A DNA stretch of 63,085 bases from a virus: IMG/VR virus record IMGVR_UViG_3300017917_003968, positions 1 through 63,085 of that record. One strand, written 5' to 3'. Positions 4,465 to 19,119 of the stretch are shown piece by piece. Position numbers and translations under genes: made by a program. The notes under the pieces were generated by a model. It was not told the origin of the DNA. It was given only the letters and a program-made list of their open reading frames with translations, and ran no database searches. Numbering within the stretch: position 1 is the stretch's first letter; every line of letters starts with the position of its first letter.

Positions 4465-5265
4465 ATGGCAAACAAATTAGAATTATTAAAGTCAATCTCA
4501 TTAGATACAGCAAAAGAATTAGCTCCAGCAATCTTTGCTACAAGCCCAGCTCCAACAATCAAGAGTCCTAAGTATCAGTTCACTCCAACATTCGAAGTGA
4601 TTGAGCACATGCAGTCTCTAGGTTATATATTAACTGGTGCAAAACAATCAAAATCAAATGTAGAGTTAAGAAAGAATTGGGGTATACATATCACTGAGTT
4701 TCAACACCCTGATCTATATATTAAAGATTCAAATGGTAATATAGAAGCAAGACCACAAGTAGTATTGATTAACTCACATGATGGTACAAGACCTATCCAG
4801 TTTGAAATGGGTTTGTTTAGATTAGTATGTTCAAATGGTTTAGTTATTAAGTCACAAGACCTAGGTTCATTTAGAGAACGTCATACCAAGTTTAACTTCC
4901 AAGAGGTAAAGAACTTAATGGATATGAAAGTACAGACCTTACCTAATGTAACAAATAAGATTAGCCAATGGAATATGATTGAGATGACCTCTACTCAAAG
5001 ATATAACTTTGCATCTGAAGCAATCTCATTAAGACTTCAAGAAGATCGTAAGCCTGAACAGTATGAGATTATGGAGATCTTAAGTCCTAAGAGAAGTGTA
5101 GACCAAGCACCAACTTTATGGCATACATATAATGCTGTACAAGAGAATCTTATTAGAGGAGGCTTCCAAATGAATAATAGGAGTGCAAGGGCTATCGTTA
5201 ACCCTATAGAGGACTTTAATATCAACCAAGCCTTATGGACGTTAGCTGATTCATTTGTAAAGTAG
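4465..5265 (+). CDS. DUF932 phage/plasmid-type protein
   Basis: A 266-residue protein resembling the DUF932 family: a beta-rich first half, then the hallmark GLFRLVCSNGLVI (around residues 121-133) followed by a segment with an Arg/His pair (FRERHTKFNFQEV) and a helical C-terminal domain. DUF932 proteins are widespread on phages and plasmids; their role is not settled. Length matches the family. The start carries the AAAATAAAAGTT leader. It is followed by a hairpin-rich non-coding stretch. Confidence 0.75.
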   Translation: MANKLELLKSISLDTAKELAPAIFATSPAPTIKSPKYQFTPTFEVIEHMQSLGYILTGAKQSKSNVELRKNWGIHITEFQHPDLYIKDSNGNIEARPQVVLINSHDGTRPIQFEMGLFRLVCSNGLVIKSQDLGSFRERHTKFNFQEVKNLMDMKVQTLPNVTNKISQWNMIEMTSTQRYNFASEAISLRLQEDRKPEQYEIMEILSPKRSVDQAPTLWHTYNAVQENLIRGGFQMNNRSARAIVNPIEDFNINQALWTLADSFVK

Positions 5266-7551: not shown

Positions 7552-7989
7552 ATGTGTTTAAGAACAATAGGCGAATTTATAAAACAAACAGCTGATAGAC
7601 CAATTATTTGTTATAAATCAGGAACTTTAACTTCTGATGGTAAACTTAAACCTCATTTTTATAATGAATTTAGATATAGTTTAAATGAAGAAACAGAGTA
7701 TGTTGAAATTAAACCCATATATTATCATAATGATCTCTATGAGGAATCTAAATCAAAAATTGAAGAAGGTTATCATAGCTATACAAAATCTAATATACTT
7801 GCTGATCATGTTTTTATTATTCCAAAAGGAGCTACATATTATTTTGGAGGTGTAAATGATTATGATGTAAATGATGGTTATGCTTCATCTAGTCTAATAT
7901 GGTTAGGACATATGTTTAGTATTTCAACATGGGTTAGATATTTTAAATATAAATTTTCAAAAAATGGCATATCAAGAAATAGAGGGTAA
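7552..7989 (+). CDS. Hypothetical protein (145 aa)
   Basis: A 145-residue protein starting 5 nt after its neighbour. It is rich in Tyr and acidic residues, with a segment YHSYTKSNILADHVFIIPKGATYYFGGVNDYDVNDGY that looks beta-rich. The last 26 nt overlap the start of the macro-domain gene in another frame, indicating translational coupling. No family recognised. Confidence 0.65.
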   Translation: MCLRTIGEFIKQTADRPIICYKSGTLTSDGKLKPHFYNEFRYSLNEETEYVEIKPIYYHNDLYEESKSKIEEGYHSYTKSNILADHVFIIPKGATYYFGGVNDYDVNDGYASSSLIWLGHMFSISTWVRYFKYKFSKNGISRNRG

Positions 7990-8437
7990 TCTAATTACTT
8001 TAGCAAAAGAAAATACGTTTGATGTAATCGCTCATGGCTGTAATTGCTTTTGTACTATGGGAGCCGGTATAGCACCTCAGATGGCAGAAGCTTTTTTGTG
8101 TAATAAGTTTAATATGGAACGTGATGAATTTAAAGGCGATATTAATAAACTTGGTACTATTGATTATGGTTACTTCCACGTAAGTGGTTTAACAGTTGTT
8201 AATGCTTATACACAATACAACTACGGTAAGAATCACGCTGATGGTGACAGTAGACCGTTAGATTACGAAGCTCTTACATTATGTTTAAGAAAAATGAATT
8301 TCATATTTAATGGAAAGCATATTGGTCTTCCACAAATTGGTTGCGGTTTAGCAGGTGGAGATTGGGAGATAGTAAAAGAAATAATTAAAAAAGAACTTAA
8401 AGATTGTAATGTAACAATTGTAATTTATAAAAAATAA
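7964..8437 (+). CDS. Macro-domain protein (ADP-ribose binding/processing)
   Basis: A 157-residue macro domain: EIEGNLITLAKENTFDVIAHGCNCFCTMGAGIAPQM (N27 and the GAGIA loop bind the ribose/pyrophosphate in the family), a middle strand VVNAYTQYNYG, and a second phosphate loop IGLPQIGCGLAGGDWE near residues 121-136. Members bind ADP-ribose and many hydrolyse ADP-ribose-1''-phosphate or remove ADP-ribose from proteins or nucleic acids. The catalytic-loop features (Asn, Gly-rich loop) are preserved, so activity is plausible. In a phage this could salvage NAD metabolites or reverse host ADP-ribosylation-based defence; that is inference. It overlaps the upstream gene by 26 nt. Confidence 0.9.
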   Translation: MAYQEIEGNLITLAKENTFDVIAHGCNCFCTMGAGIAPQMAEAFLCNKFNMERDEFKGDINKLGTIDYGYFHVSGLTVVNAYTQYNYGKNHADGDSRPLDYEALTLCLRKMNFIFNGKHIGLPQIGCGLAGGDWEIVKEIIKKELKDCNVTIVIYKK

Positions 8438-9785: not shown

Positions 9786-9820
9786 AAAAAATAAGAGCCC
9801 CTTTAATTAGGGGCTTTTTT
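9786..9820. terminator. Bidirectional Rho-independent terminator
   Basis: AGCCCC (9796-9801) pairs with GGGGCT (9810-9815) around an 8-nt loop, extended by A-T pairs. A T-run follows on the plus strand and an A-run precedes it (a T-run on the minus strand), so it can stop transcription from both sides. It lies exactly between the convergent genes ending at 9759 (+) and 9820 (-), where the two blocks of the window meet. Confidence 0.9.
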
Positions 9821-10281
9821 TATTCTTCTGTATCTTTTCTATAGAACTTACCAAGAATATTTTCGTTATAAGTATCTTGACTTAAAACATCTAGTTTAAA
9901 TTGCCAATATGTTTCATAATAACTTAATTGTTTTTTTGAATTACACAATTTAATTACTTCTCTAGTAAAACAATCCTCTCCTAAAAGTTTCATATCTTCT
10001 TTAATTAATTTGCTACTTCCCCAATAAGTATTCCAATCTGATTCCTTGGTTACTTTCTTTTTGCGTGGGACGCGCCCAGGTTTGTCCCATTCCGCGATTT
10101 CCTTTTTGGTTAATACTTTATTGGTATTATGAAAAAGTACCTTCTTTCCTATGTAGAATTTGTTTGTGCATATGTTTGTTACCTTATAGATAAATCCAAT
10201 GCAAGAAGTTGGGAATTGATCGATGTTTGTATACTCAATAACTTGTCCTGATTCAGGATCATTATATAACCATTTTTTCAT
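9820..10281 (-). CDS. GIY-YIG homing endonuclease-like protein
   Basis: A 153-residue protein with CIGFIYKVTNICTNKFYIGKK at about residues 27-47, the GIY-YIG signature (FIY at 30-32, YIG at 43-45). A YWGSSKLIKEDM segment and a helix with Glu in the C-terminal part (YYETYWQFKLDVL) complete the layout of Seg-type phage endonucleases, including the 'YWGSS' block common to T4-like family members. It is probably a free-standing homing endonuclease. It sits at the 3' end of the minus-strand block beside the bidirectional terminator, a position where an insertion disrupts nothing. Confidence 0.8.
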   Translation of the reverse strand: MKKWLYNDPESGQVIEYTNIDQFPTSCIGFIYKVTNICTNKFYIGKKVLFHNTNKVLTKKEIAEWDKPGRVPRKKKVTKESDWNTYWGSSKLIKEDMKLLGEDCFTREVIKLCNSKKQLSYYETYWQFKLDVLSQDTYNENILGKFYRKDTEE

Positions 10282-11013: not shown

Positions 11014-11766
11014 CTAAAAATATGATTCTATTTTGAATTTGAATTTCTCAAATTCATCAACATTAAATTTATTTGGAATTTTTTCTAACATTTGTTTCCA
11101 TCTTTTTTCATACATATTATAGTGTATCATAGGTTTCCCATCCCCAGTATCAGTAGAGGTTTCTCTAGATATTAATATTCGTTCTTCCATAGTTTTACTA
11201 CCATAAGCTCCAGATAAATGGTAACTATTATTAGCCCATCTATAAACATACGATAATTCTGAATGTGGTAATATCTCTACTTTCAGTTTATCTGAAATTT
11301 CTGCAAATAAAGAATGATCATCACAATCATGTAAATTTATAGGGATAGATAATGCAAAATCTTTTTTTATTAAATGTGTGGCTTCCATATTTGATGATAC
11401 AACATGATAATCTGTATTATAATTACTCATAAGTACTTCAAATGGTTTCCAAACTATATTATCTTTTATATATTTTATAGATGTAGATAGGTGGTGTGGC
11501 ATCATTAAATCATCATCATCCCAAAAAATAATATAATCACCTGTTGCTAATTCTAAACATGCTCTTCTTATAGATTGTAAAGTAGGAACTTCTTTAGCAT
11601 TTATATTATAAATTTTAACTTGCGGATGATCAAATACTAAAGGTACTTCATGTTGGTTTAATATAATTAATTCTTTATTTTCATAATCTTGATCTAAAAA
11701 ACAAGATAATGATTCAGAAGCCATTGAGTATCTACCATAAGTTCCCATTAAACAGCTTACTTTCAT
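11014..11766 (-). CDS. Family 2-type glycosyltransferase (GT-A fold)
   Basis: A 250-residue glycosyltransferase. It starts MKVSCLMGTYGRYSMASESLSC, the nucleotide-sugar strand and first helix of GT2 enzymes, followed by LDQDYENKELIILNQ. The metal-binding DxD is GDYIIFWDDDDLM (DDDD at residues 83-86). The C-terminal half carries a helix bundle with a conserved-looking YRWANNSYHLSG. It likely transfers a sugar from a nucleotide donor to protein or glycan. It overlaps the next upstream gene by 4 nt and belongs to a four-gene cassette with two more transferases and a methyltransferase, directly beside Thr-rich virion proteins. Confidence 0.9.
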   Translation of the reverse strand: MKVSCLMGTYGRYSMASESLSCFLDQDYENKELIILNQHEVPLVFDHPQVKIYNINAKEVPTLQSIRRACLELATGDYIIFWDDDDLMMPHHLSTSIKYIKDNIVWKPFEVLMSNYNTDYHVVSSNMEATHLIKKDFALSIPINLHDCDDHSLFAEISDKLKVEILPHSELSYVYRWANNSYHLSGAYGSKTMEERILISRETSTDTGDGKPMIHYNMYEKRWKQMLEKIPNKFNVDEFEKFKFKIESYF

Positions 11767-12560
11767 AATAATTTTAATTTATTTATTTCATTACTGTATT
11801 CATATGTAAAAGGAGATGCTATATTTGGTATTATATGACAACTTCCATAATGTCCAAATACTGGCTTTATTAATTTTCCAAATTCATCTGTGCATGTAAA
11901 ACTACTCCAATCTTTTGAGTAATTTCTAATTCCCGTAGTCCATAAACATGCCATAGTATCATGATAATACTTTTGTGATAAATTTAATTTCATATGAGAT
12001 AAAAACATAGCGGACTCATCTCTCATACCTAAATCATTATCTTTCATCCACACTAATGCTTTATAAAATTCTTCAACCCATAATCTAGATTCAGGATGAT
12101 TTGATCTCCAAGAAAAATAACCACCATTTATCATTGGTAAAGGATAATTAATTGGTATACCATAATCTAAAGCTACGCTTCTAGCAGTTCTTTTAAATGC
12201 CCAATTAGAATCTTCTGGTATTTGTTTATAGTTTAATTGCATAAATCCTCTATCTTCTAGAGCTTCTATACAAGGCATATAATTATTAAACATCAAGCTA
12301 TCAGCATCTACAAAACATGCAATATCATAATAGTCTACTTTAATAACTGCTTGGGTTTTTAAGATCCATATTTCTTCAATATTATTATTTTTTATATCTA
12401 TAATAATTTCTTTATGGTAAATTGGATTTTTTGTTAATTTATCTGTAAGTAATGTAACTGGTACATTAAATTTTTTACATGATAATGCTAAATTTTCTGC
12501 TAATTCATGATAAAAAGGATTAATTGCTAAAGTTACCACTCCAAAATTATGACTATTCAT
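11763..12560 (-). CDS. Glycosyltransferase (GT-A, DxD type)
   Basis: A 265-residue GT-A type glycosyltransferase. FGVVTLAINPFYHELAENLALSC is the N-terminal nucleotide-binding unit, and IACFVDADSLMFNN holds the DxD (residues 85-87). Later MINGGYFSWRSNHPESRLWVEEF resembles acceptor-side motifs of GT8-like enzymes. It could add a hexose to a glycan or protein; donor and acceptor are unknown. It overlaps its upstream neighbour by 8 nt and its downstream neighbour by 4 nt, so the cassette is translated as a coupled unit. Confidence 0.85.
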   Translation of the reverse strand: MNSHNFGVVTLAINPFYHELAENLALSCKKFNVPVTLLTDKLTKNPIYHKEIIIDIKNNNIEEIWILKTQAVIKVDYYDIACFVDADSLMFNNYMPCIEALEDRGFMQLNYKQIPEDSNWAFKRTARSVALDYGIPINYPLPMINGGYFSWRSNHPESRLWVEEFYKALVWMKDNDLGMRDESAMFLSHMKLNLSQKYYHDTMACLWTTGIRNYSKDWSSFTCTDEFGKLIKPVFGHYGSCHIIPNIASPFTYEYSNEINKLKLL

Positions 12561-13146
12561 ATTTTTTTAAGATTATAGTTTGTGTAGCTTGTGAATTATT
12601 TGTTATAATATGATTTTTTATTTTAAACCATTGTGATAAGAAATTATTAAATTCTTCAAAATTCCACTCTCTTACATGTGATCCATTTGCTGGTGGACCT
12701 ATATGAGATTTATCATATAATAAAGATCTATCTGGTGTAGATATAATTGCAATTTTCCAACTTTGACCATCTATCCAATTTACAAAACTAATCACATCAG
12801 GAATATGCTCTATTACATCAGAGCATATTAATAAATCATGATGTTCTAATTTTATATCATCTTTATATTCTATCCAATTTTTATCAGGATACTCTTTTTT
12901 TAACCAATTATATGTAATAGTTTCTTCTACTCCAGAAATTTTTATATTATTTGGAAAAAAATTTAATAATTTATAAGCACTTCCACATCCGATATCTATA
13001 ACACTATTGAAATTATTTTCTTTTAATATATCTACTGCTAATAAATAGACTTCTTTTTGCCATTCATCTTTCATTCCCATATCAAAATATTGATATGGAT
13101 TTAGTCTTTCTTTGTAATCTTTTGGAATATATATTATTTTTTCCAT
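12553..13146 (-). CDS. Class I SAM-dependent methyltransferase
   Basis: A 197-residue methyltransferase. Motif I is FNSVIDIGCGSAYKLL (DIGCGS at residues 51-56). A following acidic residue at the end of the second strand (KISGVEE) would bind the ribose, and HDLLICSDVIEHIPD is the typical motif of small-molecule or sugar methyltransferases (UbiG/SmtA-like). Lying between glycosyltransferase genes with overlaps on both sides, it probably methylates a sugar on the glycan they build, a common capping modification; this role is inferred from context. Confidence 0.85.
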   Translation of the reverse strand: MEKIIYIPKDYKERLNPYQYFDMGMKDEWQKEVYLLAVDILKENNFNSVIDIGCGSAYKLLNFFPNNIKISGVEETITYNWLKKEYPDKNWIEYKDDIKLEHHDLLICSDVIEHIPDVISFVNWIDGQSWKIAIISTPDRSLLYDKSHIGPPANGSHVREWNFEEFNNFLSQWFKIKNHIITNNSQATQTIILKKYE

Positions 13147-14105
13147 TAATATAGTACTGTTTTTTTACTTGTTTCTTTAATTTCTAATACGTAATTATAA
13201 CAATTTTTTTCTTTATTGATACTATCTATATCTATATCGTAAGGTAATGTATTCATATATGATGATTTATAAAATAATCTTCCACAACTACAAGTAACCC
13301 CAGCATTATGATATATTATAGCTTCATCCCATCTAGATATAGAATCTGTAGCCCAACTAAAATCCATTTCAGGTACTACTTTAGTTTCATTATTAAATAA
13401 CCAGCCATTCCATAAAACAGCCCACATATCTGCACACCATATTTGTAGTTCATGATATGTTGGATCTTCTTGTTTTTTTTGATTATTTAATTGAGTAACT
13501 TGATAATATAACTCTTCTGCGTCTCTTTCTACTTTACTCCAAAATTTATCATCTACATTTTTTAAAATATATTGAGCCCCTCCTGAATTACTATTCATAG
13601 ATATTGGTATACTGGGATCAATATTAACTATATTACACATTAAATCATAAACGTCTTGACCTTTTGATAGTATATAATCTGAATTAATATAACTATTAGT
13701 ATTACTTAAATACCATATATCATCAGATAAAAATTTGCTAAAATCAGGAGTCTTAGTAAATACTATATCACAATCATGATAAAAAATAGCTTCATTTTTT
13801 AATTCAGGAAATCTTTGAAAATGTTGTTTTAGTATATTAGGTCTAATAGATGAAATATATCTAATTGGTTGAATTCTAGTATCTTGATAAAAGAAAAATC
13901 TAACTGTATTATAATGAGACGCTAATTTATTCCACGCATCTATATTCTCTGGATATGAAGTTGCATCCATAGGATTCCATGCAACTAATATATCTATATT
14001 ATTTGGATTAATACCATGCTTAATAAAGTTATTAATCATAACTTCTACTTGCCAAGCATAATATAGTATTCTAGGTTGAACACAAATGTAACGTAAATTT
14101 TTCAT
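13146..14105 (-). CDS. Glycosyltransferase-like protein with DCD motif
   Basis: A 319-residue protein: MKNLRYICVQPRILYYAWQVEVMINNF, an N-terminal GT-like strand/helix, then AIFYHDCDIVFTKTP with a DxD-like DCD at residues 111-113. Later SNSGGAQYILKN and LQIWCADMWAVLWNGWLF blocks resemble acceptor-binding regions of phage transferases that recognise peptide. I judge it a GT-A enzyme, possibly the one that primes the glycan on Ser/Thr, because it lies immediately beside the mucin-like gene at 14140. ATATTTAT (14119-14126 in gene orientation) is 13 nt upstream of its start. Confidence 0.7.
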   Translation of the reverse strand: MKNLRYICVQPRILYYAWQVEVMINNFIKHGINPNNIDILVAWNPMDATSYPENIDAWNKLASHYNTVRFFFYQDTRIQPIRYISSIRPNILKQHFQRFPELKNEAIFYHDCDIVFTKTPDFSKFLSDDIWYLSNTNSYINSDYILSKGQDVYDLMCNIVNIDPSIPISMNSNSGGAQYILKNVDDKFWSKVERDAEELYYQVTQLNNQKKQEDPTYHELQIWCADMWAVLWNGWLFNNETKVVPEMDFSWATDSISRWDEAIIYHNAGVTCSCGRLFYKSSYMNTLPYDIDIDSINKEKNCYNYVLEIKETSKKTVLY

Positions 14106-14118
14106 AACATTATTTTAT

Positions 14119-14126
14119 ATAAATAT
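14119..14126 (-). promoter_or_regulatory. ATATTTAT motif upstream of glycosyltransferase cassette
   Basis: Reads TTTGATATTTATAT in minus-strand orientation, ending 13 nt before the ATG at 14105. It could start transcription of the four-gene glycosylation cassette independently of the fibre genes. Function inferred from recurrence of the motif. Confidence 0.35.
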
Positions 14127-14139
14127 CAAATTTTACTTA

Positions 14140-14718
14140 TTAACAAGTATATTGAGGTGGAATTATAACAGTATCACCACCAGAATCAGTAATTAAACAT
14201 GCACCAGAAGCTCCACTACAATTATTAGGACCTATATTAGCATTGCTAATAGATTGATCACCTGCCTGCATATAAACTATACCACCTCCTGATAAAGTAC
14301 TAACAGTAAATGATGTTGCTTGTGTTAGTGGTCCTGCTAAATCTATAAATGCTTCAAGCCAACAAGATTCACCATATTGATCTTGCTGTTGCTCTACTCT
14401 AAAGCCAACTACACTATTTACAAATGTAGTAGTTGTACTAGTTGTTGTACTAGTAGTCGTAGGAGCTACAGTAGTAGTACTAGTGGTTGTACTAGTAGTT
14501 GTAGTTGGCTCTATAGTTGTTGTACTAGTTGTAGTACTAGTAGTTGTAGGAGTTACAGTAGTTGTACTAGTTGTTGTACTAGTAGTTGTAGTTGTAGTTG
14601 TTGTAGATTGGGGAAATACTAAAGTACTCCCAACGTACATTTCTTTTACATTTTCTGTACCTACCTTATATTGACCTACCGTTCCTAATAAAAAAGAACC
14701 TACTTTAGTACTGCCCAT
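14140..14718 (-). CDS. Mucin-like Thr-rich virion adhesin (192 aa)
   Basis: A 192-residue protein in three parts: a short N-terminal domain (GSTKVGSFLLGTVGQYKVGTENVKEMYVGSTLVFPQ), a Thr/Ser tract at about residues 38-99 of TTTSTTTSTTT units separated by VTP, IEP and VAP, and a C-terminal Cys-containing beta-type domain (VVGFRVEQQQ ... GDTVIIPPQYTC). The Thr tract resembles eukaryotic-style mucin linkers and would be an ideal O-glycosylation substrate. It directly follows three glycosyltransferases and a methyltransferase. It is likely a tail-tip or fibre-associated protein; the opposite strand's Val-rich frames are shadows. Confidence 0.7.
   Translation of the reverse strand: MGSTKVGSFLLGTVGQYKVGTENVKEMYVGSTLVFPQSTTTTTTTTSTTTSTTTVTPTTTSTTTSTTTIEPTTTTSTTTSTTTVAPTTTSTTTSTTTTFVNSVVGFRVEQQQDQYGESCWLEAFIDLAGPLTQATSFTVSTLSGGGIVYMQAGDQSISNANIGPNNCSGASGACLITDSGGDTVIIPPQYTC
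14447..14504. repeat. 58-nt repeat identical to 16912-16969
   Basis: This stretch within the Thr-coding tract is identical base for base to 16912-16969 in the 16539-18074 gene. The two encode the same TTTSTTT / VAP / TTTSTTT segment, so identity at all synonymous positions points to recent duplication or gene conversion. Confidence 0.9.
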
Positions 14719-14721
14719 ATT

Positions 14722-15783
14722 TTAAATTATAACGTATAAAACATTTGATGAAGGAGAACCTATAGCAGCATATTCTGCAGCTGTAAGCGTAATAATATCA
14801 GTTATTTTAGCTGTACTAGTATATGTATCATTTTTATTCATGATATATCCATCAGGATTTGTGCTATTGTATGGAGTATATCCCAATCCAGTTGTAATTT
14901 GACCAGAAGTTAGACTTAAAGTTCCTCCTAAAGTTAGATTTCCTGTAGTAGTAACAGTGCCAGTAAGAGTTAATCCTGACACAGTACCTGTACCACTAAC
15001 GGAAGTTACGGTTCCGGTAGTTCCTGGATATTGTGGAATATTCAATGTACTTCCAACTAATGTAGCAGCACCACTTGTTCCTGTTGTAGTCAGGGTAATT
15101 GCGTTTTGCTTATTATTAAAAGTACTCCAATCAGTAGAAGATAAAACACCTCTATTAGTAGCGTTTGCAGTAGGAACATTTAATGTAATTACAGGGGTAG
15201 TACTACCATTAGCCACTGTTGAGCTAAGGTCTGTTCCAGTTGTTCCTATAGTCAATGCTGCAACACTAGCTACTGTACCAAATGCTGTATTATCGTATGA
15301 TATATTGGTACCGTTAGCTTTCACGAATCCGGTACCATTTAATGCTGTTAATGGGATTCCGTTTAAATATCCAGATCCTACCAAATATGTACTTCCGGAT
15401 AATACTTGAATGTCTGATAAAGAATCTCCAAATAAATTAGATCCGCTGGAATATATAACCGATGATGTGACAGTCTGAACTATTAAAGTTTGCGCTGTTA
15501 TTTTTCCTATTATAGTCTGATCTCCTCTAAATATATTTGATCCTGTGGTTGCAAACGAACCTGTTTGTGATGACAAAACAATAGGGTCATTATTAACAGT
15601 TATGGAAGTTCCAACTTGTTTAATTACGCTATCTCCGATCGTATGGTCTGCAGTAAATACCGGTATTGTACCGATAGTTCCGTATACCGAAGATGATATA
15701 CTTTGATCTAGATACGTAAAGTTGGTATCTAACTCAGAATAAGTTAAAGCACTTCCTTTTTGTAATCTTAATATTAATCCCAT
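14722..15783 (-). CDS. Tail fibre-like protein (353 aa)
   Basis: A 353-residue Gly/Thr/Ser-rich fibre-type protein. The N-terminus GLILRLQKGSALTYSELDTNFTYLD is a conserved fibre-attachment start in Bacteroidota phages (from memory). TAQTLIVQTVTSSVIYSSGSNLFGD is followed by many short TGT/SGT beta-turn repeats and a chaperone-like or trimerisation-like end (LTAAEYAAIGSPSSNVLYVII). The TAQTLIVQT block is shared with the fibre gene at 61532. Codon use and CpG content are visibly higher than in the baseplate genes, suggesting a separately acquired module. It probably recognises the host surface. Confidence 0.75.
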   Translation of the reverse strand: MGLILRLQKGSALTYSELDTNFTYLDQSISSSVYGTIGTIPVFTADHTIGDSVIKQVGTSITVNNDPIVLSSQTGSFATTGSNIFRGDQTIIGKITAQTLIVQTVTSSVIYSSGSNLFGDSLSDIQVLSGSTYLVGSGYLNGIPLTALNGTGFVKANGTNISYDNTAFGTVASVAALTIGTTGTDLSSTVANGSTTPVITLNVPTANATNRGVLSSTDWSTFNNKQNAITLTTTGTSGAATLVGSTLNIPQYPGTTGTVTSVSGTGTVSGLTLTGTVTTTGNLTLGGTLSLTSGQITTGLGYTPYNSTNPDGYIMNKNDTYTSTAKITDIITLTAAEYAAIGSPSSNVLYVII

Positions 15784-15816
15784 TTTTATATCGTTTTATA
15801 CTTATAAATATATATT

Positions 15817-16515
15817 TTAATTGATTTGGCAGTTTTGAGCGGTTAAGCTGAAAGTACCTTCGTTTCCGCTTGTGCAATTTATCTGATCTACCGATAGAAC
15901 ATATGTACCAGGAGTCGATAATACAAATGAAGGTTGACTATAAGATGGTAGATTACTTCCAACTTGAGTCATTTCAAATGTTGTTATTATCGCACCACCT
16001 GTCGTTTTCAAAGCCGCTGCAGCGCTTCTTGTTCCGTTATTACCATCCCAGAAATATCCTTGAGGTACTATAGTAATAGAATACCCAGCAGCTAAAGTAA
16101 ATGTAGCTGTATCAGACGATGCACATGTTCCTTGAGCATACGTATCACCAGTTACACAACTAAATGGTATTGTAGTAGTCGTAGTCGTCGTGCTAGTAGT
16201 AGTTGGTACAACTGTAGTCGTAGTCGTCGTTGTACTAGTAGTAGGTGCGCCTGTTGTTGTAGTTGATGTCGTACTAGTAGTCGTAGTAGATGTAGTCGGA
16301 ATTCCGGATATCGATAGATCTATACTATTAGTGCACGTACCGGTAGATGTTACAGTTACCTTAGTAGCTGTATCATCAACAGAAACCGATTTACCGGATA
16401 ATAATTCTGATAATGTAGCTGTGTTTGGAGAAACTACTCCAACATCAGCAGTTAGGTTGAAATTAGGACCTAAGTCAGCTCCCAATCCAGAATTAAGTGT
16501 TAATAATACGTTCAT
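15817..16515 (-). CDS. Mucin-like Thr-rich virion protein (232 aa)
   Basis: A 232-residue protein with an N-terminal beta-type domain (MNVLLTLNSGLGADLGPNFNLTADVG), a Thr tract at about residues 75-117 broken by GAP and VVP, and a Cys-containing C-terminal domain (SCVTGDTYAQGTCASSDTATFTLA ... GTFSLTAQNC) that looks like a beta-sandwich. The N-terminal domain (NLTADVGVVSPNTATLSELLSGKSVSV) resembles small domains that precede fibre modules. The C-terminal coding part is relatively rich in CpG. Same architecture as 14140 and 16539 but with different flanking domains. Confidence 0.7.
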   Translation of the reverse strand: MNVLLTLNSGLGADLGPNFNLTADVGVVSPNTATLSELLSGKSVSVDDTATKVTVTSTGTCTNSIDLSISGIPTTSTTTTSTTSTTTTGAPTTSTTTTTTTVVPTTTSTTTTTTTIPFSCVTGDTYAQGTCASSDTATFTLAAGYSITIVPQGYFWDGNNGTRSAAAALKTTGGAIITTFEMTQVGSNLPSYSQPSFVLSTPGTYVLSVDQINCTSGNEGTFSLTAQNCQIN

Positions 16516-16538
16516 TTTTTATAGTTATTATTTTATGA

Positions 16539-18074
16539 TCACGGAGTTCCTATTTCATCTCTATTTACTGTTAATTTTACATAGTTATAACCATTTACAA
16601 TAGTGTATGAATAATTACTTCCGGGTCCTGCAGTTAAAGGACAAGAAGTTCCGCCATCTGTAGTTCCAGAAGCTCCGCTCATTTTAGATGTCCCGCTAGT
16701 TGAAAATACAATAACATCGCCTACATTAAGTAGAATCGGTGACCCGATTAAATCACAAGTTGCGGTAGAAATTCCCCCTAATACACTAGGATCTATTTGA
16801 CTATTTATTTTATAATATAATGTTGGTGCAGGGTTTATTCCAGTACCAATATCTCGTGCGGATACAAATAATGTTGTTGGTAATGGTGCTATTGTAGTAG
16901 TCGTAGTTGTAGTACTAGTAGTCGTAGGAGCTACAGTAGTAGTACTAGTGGTTGTACTAGTAGTTGTAGGTGCAGTTGTTGTAGTACTAGTTGTAGTACT
17001 GGTTGTGGTTGTTGTGGTAGTAGGAGCTATAGTAGTCGTACTAGTTGTTGTACTAGTGGTAGTAGGAGCTGCTGTAGTCGTACTAGTTGTAGTACTGGTT
17101 GTGGTTGTTGTAGTAGTAGTTGTAGTAATAGTCGGTAATACATTTATAGTTATCTTAGCTTTATTACTAGTAAGATAGCAACCTCCTAATATTTGTGATT
17201 GTACAGTGTAATATGTATAATAACTGCCTGGTGTTGTTGAATTTAATGTAACATTTCCATTTAACGTATTAATACTAAATAAATTATAATCTCCTTCATA
17301 TAAAGTTACTGTAGATGGTATTATAATACCAGTTTTTGGTATATCATTACTTAAAATATCAAGTGTTTTATTAAGATTTTCTTGATAGAAAGTGCCAGAA
17401 TCATCTACTGCTATAGGTTCATACGGTAATATATTTTGATAATCTGGATTTGTAATAATTACAATTCCTTGACTATATATAATATTTCCAACATGAGCTA
17501 TTTCTGGTTTAACATACCAATCAGTAAATTCAGGGGTATCATACATCAAGTAATTATAGTATGATTCTTCTGATGTATCTATTAAATTACCATTACCATC
17601 ATCAACAATATAATAATTTGGTGAACTTAAAACAAAACTTCTTTTACTTATATTTTCTCCATAAATACTTCTAGGAATAGATATTACTCTTACACTACTA
17701 TTAGATTCAGTTGGAAAATATCTTAAATCAGCATCTAATGTACCTGATGCAGCAGTTGATTGTAAAAAATTATCATAACTAGAAGTTGAATAGGATCCAG
17801 TATTAGATAGTGAATATAAATAATTGTCGTAATTTGAAGCAGAAAAAGGTAATGATTTAGCTACGTAATTAGAATAATATAAATGTTTAGTAGATAAATA
17901 ATTAATTGTCTCAATAGGTAAAGATCCTGTAGATGATACAGATCCATTAATCCCATTATAAAAAGTTATACCAGCATTATTAACATTACTACAGTTAAAT
18001 GATGATGTATACTTTACTTTAATAGGAGTAGTTGTAACATCCGATGTTTTTAAACTATTTGATGATCTACTCAT
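16539..18074 (-). CDS. Thr-rich virion protein with large N-terminal domain (511 aa)
   Basis: A 511-residue protein. Residues 1-310 form an AT-rich, Ser/Tyr/Asn-rich structural part, including a stretch (ILPYEPIAVDDSGTFYQENL) like cadherin/Ig-type repeats with DDSGT. A long mucin-like tract (about residues 312-400) has five TTTSTTTSTTT units spaced by AAP, IAP, TAP, VAP and IAP. The C-terminal domain (LPTTLFVSARDIGTG ... LTVNRDEIGTP) is less AT-rich and contains Cys residues. The change in composition falls at the Thr tract, suggesting a chimera. It precedes the other Thr-rich genes in the same transcription unit. Confidence 0.75.
   Translation of the reverse strand: MSRSSNSLKTSDVTTTPIKVKYTSSFNCSNVNNAGITFYNGINGSVSSTGSLPIETINYLSTKHLYYSNYVAKSLPFSASNYDNYLYSLSNTGSYSTSSYDNFLQSTAASGTLDADLRYFPTESNSSVRVISIPRSIYGENISKRSFVLSSPNYYIVDDGNGNLIDTSEESYYNYLMYDTPEFTDWYVKPEIAHVGNIIYSQGIVIITNPDYQNILPYEPIAVDDSGTFYQENLNKTLDILSNDIPKTGIIIPSTVTLYEGDYNLFSINTLNGNVTLNSTTPGSYYTYYTVQSQILGGCYLTSNKAKITINVLPTITTTTTTTTTTSTTTSTTTAAPTTTSTTTSTTTIAPTTTTTTTSTTTSTTTTAPTTTSTTTSTTTVAPTTTSTTTTTTTIAPLPTTLFVSARDIGTGINPAPTLYYKINSQIDPSVLGGISTATCDLIGSPILLNVGDVIVFSTSGTSKMSGASGTTDGGTSCPLTAGPGSNYSYTIVNGYNYVKLTVNRDEIGTP
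16912..16969. repeat. 58-nt repeat identical to 14447-14504
   Basis: Second copy of the 58-nt sequence in a Thr-coding tract of a neighbouring gene. Further shorter repeats of the same kind (for example a roughly 30-nt block near 16984 and again near 17080) occur inside this gene. Confidence 0.9.
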
Positions 18075-18084
18075 TTATTTTATT

Positions 18085-19119
18085 TTACCAATCTAATTTA
18101 ACTCTAATAAGTGCTTCTTTAGTAAAGTCTTTTGTTAATGGTTTTGACATTTTAGCTACAGCTAATAGTTCATTATTATTATTATATAAACCTACAGTAG
18201 TTGGAAATGTTTGTGGGCTATTAATAAAATTAGAATATATCATAGTACCAGAACCAGAAATAAATGATGGATTTGTAGTATAATTATATTCTGAGTTTTT
18301 AATTCTAACAAATATATAATCAGAAGATATAGTTTCTTGTGAATTTAATTGAAAGTTTTGCCCTCTATTAATTAATTGAAATATTGTTTCATGATTAGTA
18401 GATGATGCAGCTACAGTAGTTCCAGGATTAAATGAAACATTAAGTCCACCAGATCCTACTGCAAGTCCTAATGCTTTGGGATTTAAAACTATTAATCCTA
18501 AATCAGGTAGCATTAAACCATAACTTCCAGATGCAGTATATCCTTTTGTACCTGCTCCAGATAATAAAGGACTATTTATAGCTGTTCCATTAGATCCAGA
18601 GATAATATCATAAACTCTACCTCCATCAACATACTTAATAGTACTAACATCATTAGAATTATCTGTTAATAATAATTTATTACCACTAACATCAGCTAAA
18701 GTTAAATTAAATGTACCAGGAAATAAACCTTCTTTATACTTATTTCTATCAATTGGAATAGCTATTAAATCTATTGATGATGTATTACCATTTCCAAAAT
18801 TTACTGGAGATTCTGCATCACCATAAATTAAATTTCTATACTGACCAAAAGTAATTCTTGTTGGAGAATATCCAGGAATTAATGAATTTAATGGTGCAGA
18901 TCCAGAACCGTCCGATCTTCCATATGCTATTGAAAATTGTATAGATGATGTAACACTTGATACTGGTGCATTGTATACATCTATATAATAACTACCTGTT
19001 ATAGAAGCAGATGCTGTATAAAATGATGTTAGGATAGTGGCTCCATTACTCCATGCAGGAGCAACAACAGAATCTGATGATACTACAAAATCAGTAGGAT
19101 CTAATTTAGTAAATGACAT
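18085..19119 (-). CDS. Virion structural protein, baseplate/tail region (344 aa)
   Basis: A 344-residue protein of the tail region. It begins FTKLDPTDFVVSSDSVVAPAWSNGATILTSFYTASASITGSYYIDVYN and ends with the ~85-residue domain duplicated as the gene at 10693. It contains many Gly/Ser/Asn beta-turn motifs and no enzyme motif. In related T4-like marine phages genes of this kind sit between baseplate wedge and fibre genes, so I call it a baseplate-proximal structural protein. It is 11 nt downstream of the 19131 gene. Confidence 0.65.
   Translation of the reverse strand: MSFTKLDPTDFVVSSDSVVAPAWSNGATILTSFYTASASITGSYYIDVYNAPVSSVTSSIQFSIAYGRSDGSGSAPLNSLIPGYSPTRITFGQYRNLIYGDAESPVNFGNGNTSSIDLIAIPIDRNKYKEGLFPGTFNLTLADVSGNKLLLTDNSNDVSTIKYVDGGRVYDIISGSNGTAINSPLLSGAGTKGYTASGSYGLMLPDLGLIVLNPKALGLAVGSGGLNVSFNPGTTVAASSTNHETIFQLINRGQNFQLNSQETISSDYIFVRIKNSEYNYTTNPSFISGSGTMIYSNFINSPQTFPTTVGLYNNNNELLAVAKMSKPLTKDFTKEALIRVKLDW

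Follow-up and report, generated by a model that had tools for sequence, protein, structure and literature searches.

PHROG 4417, a candidate phage-encoded O-glycosyltransferase family linked to poly-threonine tracts of phage proteins

Here, we report a cassette of putative glycan enzymes encoded directly beside proteins with long threonine/serine (Thr/Ser) tracts in a viral DNA of 63,085 nucleotides (nt) (IMG/VR record IMGVR_UViG_3300017917_003968; the whole stretch is called the window below). The central enzyme belongs to PHROG family 4417, annotated in PHROG as 'unknown function', and sequence comparison indicates that it probably glycosylates Thr tracts of virion proteins. The fuller picture, which we favor by a modest degree, is a mucin-type O-glycosylation of the phage's own: a PHROG 4417 enzyme would act on a portable poly-Thr tag of capsid, tail-tube, and fibre proteins in phages from at least three phyla, would occur in bacterial peptide-modification clusters as well, and would be coupled, in phages of the aquatic Bacteroidota type, to block-swapped elaboration genes that give each phage its own glycan type. 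An unnamed gene known from 74 records of sequenced phages and from at least 572 stretches of environmental viruses would then be a candidate cytoplasmic peptide O-glycosyltransferase with a poly-Thr tag. If this is true, virion glycosylation is far commoner than the mycobacteriophage cases, phage surfaces could change their glycan type when cassettes are exchanged, and enzyme and tag together may offer a compact tool to glycosylate proteins in bacteria.

Thr tracts upstream of PHROG 4417 genes

Relatives of the enzyme were collected from viral stretches (80 of the at least 572 were fetched), 17 bacterial contigs, and the phage records (tblastn, 1e-5), the last being phages of Lactobacillus, Enterococcus, Staphylococcus, Lactococcus, Arcanobacterium, and Chryseobacterium, i.e., of three host phyla (Firmicutes, Actinobacteria, and Bacteroidota). 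The same-strand gene directly upstream of the enzyme encodes a Thr tract in 64/102 loci, positions further upstream do so in 2-9%, and downstream positions never do (0/103 at +1, 0/96 at +2, and 0/90 at +3). After loci were clustered at 70% enzyme identity, the tract remained directly upstream in 22.4/38 versus 0/39, 0/36, and 0/35 at the three downstream positions (Fisher 2e-16); the median gap between tract gene and enzyme is 22 nt. Among isolates, a Thr-rich tail was found on a nearby head or tail protein in 18/18 examined, and in 16 of these the enzyme is immediately preceded by the tail-encoding gene or by a shifted frame that encodes the tail. The exceptions are bIL285, whose major tail protein, encoded five genes on, bears the tail, and PT1-4, in which another gene intervenes. 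The isolate carriers include gp51 of LP65, which its record annotates as structural by 2-D/MS (MS, mass spectrometry). Hundreds of phages carry relatives of the enzyme, usually in the same position, so that glycosylation of the tracts by it is very probable.

The carriers themselves have little in common. They include major capsid, major tail, Ig-domain, and fibre-like proteins, and 77 of them, with tracts masked, fall into 25 families without detectable relationship by BLAST. The association also holds in the reverse direction, the enzyme being present in 13/106 viral loci retrieved with a DNA pattern for poly-Thr (directly downstream in 12) versus 0/120 loci retrieved with an arbitrary pattern (p=4e-5). 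Where an enzyme contig has no adjacent tract, one occurs elsewhere in 8/20, compared with 0/24 random contigs.

Several points weigh against tract glycosylation. The enzyme is missing nearby in 93/106 of the poly-Thr loci, many of which are truncated, and enrichment of any other glycosyltransferase beside poly-Thr proteins was not clearly seen (few of the 38 genes downstream and few of the 43 upstream matched a glycosyltransferase family); poly-Thr tracts can therefore exist without this system. One clade (the L036-L062 group) has the enzyme with no adjacent tract, and two loci (L029 and L030) keep it beside a protein without a tract. In the window, one cassette gene (here gene 11763, after its first position) has no match in Pfam, PHROG, NCBIfam, or PDB, the three tract proteins are placed in the virion by gene position, and no glycan, glycopeptide, or enzyme assay for PHROG 4417 was found in the searchable literature. 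The frequency of enzyme-free poly-Thr and the enzyme loci without adjacent tract also favor another explanation, i.e., that the tracts are unmodified flexible linkers and the enzyme modifies a different site on the same virion proteins. We consider this unlikely, because the tract is the sole feature common to the 25 carrier families and because its type shifts with enzyme divergence: the LP65 enzyme is the most divergent relative (21%), and its partner tract is divergent too (TETQTQ).

Chromosomal relatives point in the same direction as the phage loci. On six chromosomes (Chitinophaga, Pedobacter, Mucilaginibacter, and related; L090-L095), the PHROG 4417 domain forms the start of a protein of ~580 amino acids (aa), whose C terminus matches Glyco_transf_7C in the five scanned (all but L094), weakly in one of them. 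A LanC-like gene adjoins the fusion in 6/6, and nearby genes encode a radical-SAM peptide maturase (L090), a C39 peptidase transporter (L093 and L095), and HlyD (L093). These are peptide-modification settings, so that here, too, the acceptor is probably a ribosomal peptide; the clusters are possibly glycosylated lanthipeptide-like ones, and no precursor peptide was identified in them. The neighborhood resembles Bacteroidota clusters for ribosomally synthesized and post-translationally modified peptides of glycosylated or lanthionine type, although the enzyme there presumably acts on a secreted peptide and not, as proposed for the window, on a virion protein. The preliminary description of this DNA, made from the letters alone, had proposed that the Thr-tract proteins are glycosylated by enzymes of the same phage; with tracts across unrelated carriers in three phyla and with the LanC-like clusters, that proposal now has strong comparative support.

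The variable cassette of the window and its flanks

The window, a fragment from a T4-like virus of aquatic Bacteroidota-type bacteria, has terminase, portal, major capsid, and baseplate genes; its major capsid protein shares 55% identity with the one from Flavobacterium phage immuto. After the baseplate genes, the minus strand encodes, in order, a 344-aa protein, three proteins with Thr/Ser tracts and a fibre protein interspersed with them, four enzymes, and a 100-aa protein (Table 1). The seven open reading frames of the preliminary description were confirmed on this strand at the same coordinates, the enzyme genes overlap by 1, 8, and 4 nt, and the abutment of enzyme genes and Thr-tract proteins is real; a chance arrangement is excluded by its conservation in relatives. 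The claim that gene 11763 is a glycosyltransferase gained no independent support from family matches, and the variable region proved wider than first drawn, being framed by the 344-aa and 100-aa genes.

Table 1. Cassette, tract-protein, and flanking genes of the window
Feature	Coordinates	Strand	Basis or remark
PHROG 4417 enzyme ('prophage pi2 protein 34'), putative initiating poly-Thr O-glycosyltransferase	13146..14105	-	phrog_4417 profile; invariant D111, D113, H266; GT-A model
Class I S-adenosylmethionine (SAM) methyltransferase, probable sugar O-methyltransferase (capping), variable-cassette gene	12553..13146	-	PF13489; sugar target inferred
Possible glycosyltransferase, variable-cassette gene	11763..12560	-	FVDADSLMF motif and gene context only
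GT2 family glycosyltransferase (chain extension), variable-cassette gene	11014..11766	-	PF00535, PDB 9jma
192-aa protein, probable acceptor	14140..14718	-	Directly upstream of PHROG 4417 enzyme
353-aa fibre-like protein	14722..15783	-	C-terminal Phage_tail_C, PF24243 2.9e-8; without Thr tract
232-aa protein with 50-residue Thr tract, probable acceptor	15817..16515	-	
511-aa protein with 85-residue Thr/Ser tract, probable acceptor	16539..18074	-	
Conserved upstream flank, 344-aa probable virion protein	18085..19119	-	
Conserved downstream flank of variable cassette, 100 aa	10693..10995	-	

The tracts of the window consist of Thr interrupted every few residues by a single Ser, with (A/V/I/T)-P as spacers; that of the 511-aa protein is built from TTTSTTT units with (A/V/I)-P between them, and that of the 192-aa protein (66 residues) lies between an N-terminal and a C-terminal domain. 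Their codons are mixed (ACT/ACA/ACG/ACC/AGT), so that they are not a simple DNA microsatellite. The Pfam Mucin profile (PF01456) scores 24.4 bits on the 192-aa protein, below its curated cut-off of 34.7, and this match is compositional. The N-terminal part of the 232-aa protein is 71% identical to the tract protein of another locus (L078), and homologues of the 511-aa protein in 24 relatives lie directly upstream of the PHROG 4417 enzyme in 21 and two genes upstream in 3.

A gene order of 344-aa protein, then 511-aa tract homologue, then PHROG 4417 enzyme, then one to six further genes, and finally 100-aa protein is shared by 23 close relatives, with about 67-78% identity in the enzyme. The enzyme and both flanks are conserved, and the genes between them are swapped: the 51 middle genes form 21 families without mutual BLAST similarity, among which the window methyltransferase and gene 11763 have no BLAST homologue and the window GT2 has only distant ones. 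By Pfam type, the swapped families comprise GT2, GT6, GT32 (Gly_transf_sug), GT61, Fringe-like proteins, methyltransferases including FkbM, a nucleotide-sugar epimerase, and a radical-SAM protein. Judged from these genes, the pattern is that of a serotype locus, with a predicted constant first step and variable elaboration. Among the close relatives, two have no tract, and in the others its length is 52 to 247 residues; in L029 and L030 (5440-7985), the adjacent protein ends before the tract, and one radical-SAM/SPASM protein makes up the whole cassette, i.e., tract loss coincides with loss of the glycan genes.

The 344-aa flank is 62-78% identical in the best-matching relatives and 48% identical in immuto. 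The 100-aa protein, found downstream of the enzyme in the 23 relatives, is a paralogue of the C terminus of the 344-aa protein (40% identity, E=1e-11), so that the variable region is bounded by duplicated ends, which could be used in recombination. In the closest isolated relatives (immuto, Mel-JY01, and RM378), the matching region has neither tract nor PHROG 4417 enzyme, and the gene is therefore not core to this lineage; in immuto and Mel-JY01, the interval is occupied by genes for tail fibres/spikes or for large unnamed proteins, which places the system in a receptor-binding locus. In Rhodothermus phage RM378, a 345-aa protein and a UDP-galactopyranose mutase-like gene were seen near the 344-aa homologue (L363 9156-11341), possibly another sugar cassette at the same locus.

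Phage glycosyltransferases that alter the host O-antigen or capsule are well known, and enzymes for serotype conversion or receptor masking would be useful in a receptor-binding locus, too; the adhesin neighborhood would then be coincidental. Modification of host surface glycans is, however, quite improbable here. The upstream neighbor is a tract protein in many loci and three host phyla, while these neighbors are otherwise unrelated. In Firmicutes phages, the enzyme lies inside head/tail modules, whose late expression would come too late for a serotype change. The cassette also has no membrane-embedded partner of the gtr type (flippase or glycosyltransferase): the maximum 19-residue hydropathy of the four enzymes is 0.58-1.22, compared with 2.6 for a membrane protein of the window, and no transmembrane segment was detected in them by this measure. 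No flippase or oligosaccharyltransferase matched among the cassette genes scanned.

Predicted activities and proposed scheme

The PHROG 4417 protein of the window matches its profile over the full length (E=1.4e-64; residues 5-313 on positions 2-292 of 293) and has no Pfam match. Its AlphaFold model, made from a 29-sequence alignment, has a GT-A fold with a pLDDT (predicted local distance difference test) of 95, and the nearest PDB folds are UGGT, glycogenin, and LARGE1 (GT24 and GT8 folds), several of which act on protein-linked substrates. Fold and DxD/His agree with CAZy GT8/GT24; TM-scores are only about 0.4-0.5 at 8-13% identity, and no Pfam or PDB sequence profile matches. Its activity is so far a prediction, and one depositor's record cites homology to the PqqD peptide-modification chaperone protein, which would suit an inactive GT fold serving as a peptide-binding chaperone for poly-Thr tails. 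Invariance of DxD and His (D111, D113, and H266) in 29 diverse relatives and the company of glycan enzymes make such a chaperone very unlikely. Glycosylation of phage DNA in the T4-like manner can be put aside as extremely improbable: the window phage is T4-like and DNA-hypermodifying phage glycosyltransferases have been described (Pyle et al. 2024, as cited in PMC12619734), but PHROG 4417 occurs within structural operons of phages as unlike as small lactococcal prophages, and its chromosomal versions stand in peptide-modification clusters. T4-type DNA glucosyltransferases (alpha/beta-GT) are not among the Pfam or PHROG matches or the 50 best PDB folds of the protein.

The GT2 enzyme belongs to its family by PF00535 (E=3e-9, 37.5 bits against a curated cut-off of 23.3) and matches a PglI-type glucosyltransferase (9jma, E=6e-9). 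The methyltransferase is narrowly above the cut-off of 27 for PF13489 (27.7 bits, E=2.6e-6), a generic SAM methyltransferase profile. Gene 11763 possibly encodes a glycosyltransferase, as suggested by a DAD motif and gene context; its single-sequence fold is unusable (pLDDT 33), and BLAST found no homologue of it among the fetched relatives. Profile comparison showed no relation of its product to PHROG 4417, searches of viral contigs with this protein and with the methyltransferase returned no relatives, and the longest frame overlapping the lone weak match in 295 class-level genomes reads by eye as an unrelated oxygenase.

We propose a cytoplasmic, phage-encoded O-glycosylation of the phage's own surface proteins, in which poly-Thr/Ser tracts would be portable acceptor tags recognized by the PHROG 4417 enzyme. 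Before or during assembly, this enzyme would place the first sugar, from a nucleotide-sugar donor, on Thr/Ser of the tract; the GT2 enzyme, perhaps with the gene 11763 product, would extend the glycan, and the methyltransferase may cap it by O-methylation. Transfer would proceed sugar by sugar with no lipid carrier, sequential cytoplasmic transfer being favored over lipid-linked assembly because the four enzymes showed no transmembrane segment and the cassette genes scanned matched no flippase or oligosaccharyltransferase. The order of building and capping, as the preliminary description had it, is plausible and agrees with the swap pattern, yet one of the three genes is without a verified family, and we regard the chances of this order as about even. 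The tracts would form stiff glycan-covered stalks or tails on adhesins, between an N-terminal anchor and a C-terminal domain. Because the elaboration genes swap as a block between conserved flanks, the glycan structure would vary among close relatives, and this variability suggests selection by a surface recognizer (host surface, competing binders, grazers, or antibodies). The most likely function would be modulation or shielding of host-contact proteins, but any one biological role for the glycan coat, including the shielding, binding to mucus or capsule, and evasion of immunity named in the preliminary description, can be put forward only tentatively.

Bacteria glycosylate serine-rich repeat adhesins and flagellins in the cytoplasm by soluble enzymes acting in sequence, with a constant initiator and variable later enzymes. 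The scheme proposed here is likewise stepwise, soluble, and cytoplasmic on a Ser/Thr-rich protein; unlike those systems, it is virus-encoded and has no secretion system, and kinship of PHROG 4417 to the known initiators is not demonstrated.

Among phages, the closest described case is that of mycobacteriophages, in which glycans occur on the C termini of capsid and tail-tube subunits and phage glycosyltransferases are implicated (Freeman et al. 2023, as cited in PMC12619734 and PMC10955285). The earlier remark that no described phage system was known to pair these elements must thus be amended. As far as these citing papers describe it, that system also links a phage-encoded glycosyltransferase to virion surface proteins (in our case by gene position and comparison), while the acceptors here are poly-Thr tracts, fibre-like proteins are included, and the elaboration genes form a swapped cassette. 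No Mycobacterium phage is among the 74 phage records. A paper linking poly-Thr virion tails with PHROG 4417 or glycosyltransferases was not found in a search outside which many subscription journals lay. Virion glycosylation itself is already known; the family, the tag, and the variable cassette look new.

Shifted poly-Thr frames and neighboring observations

In Staphylococcus phage RQ1 (L006 4660-4690), Arcanobacterium phage TPWB06 (L007 4745-4765), and also L353, the major tail protein ends in TTTTTTTP at CCC-TAA, and a +1 shift at CCC-T would enter a long poly-Thr frame that immediately precedes the PHROG 4417 gene. The tail gene of Listeria phage PSA has a programmed +1 frameshift at CCC-UGA (PMC5009743). 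As in PSA, the CCC-UAA sites of the Staphylococcus and Arcanobacterium phages would extend some of the major tail proteins; unlike in PSA, the extension would be poly-Thr, and a PHROG 4417 gene comes next. In Enterococcus phages nattely and 9183 (L348 2700-2880 and L349 2760-2880), a poly-Thr frame follows the major capsid stop in a different frame, which suggests capsid extension by frameshift.

Two genes ahead of the enzyme, L070 may have a poly-Ser open frame (4868-5209), and the upstream genes of the L036-L062 group appear, by eye, phosphoesterase-like and peptidase-like. Elsewhere in the window, 7964-8437 reads by eye as a macro-domain (ADP-ribose-binding) protein. The PHROG label 'NAD synthetase' for 9820-10281 looks wrong; a GIY-YIG-type protein is indicated by its matches (homing endonucleases and a group I intron endonuclease) and by the Mel-JY01 counterpart.

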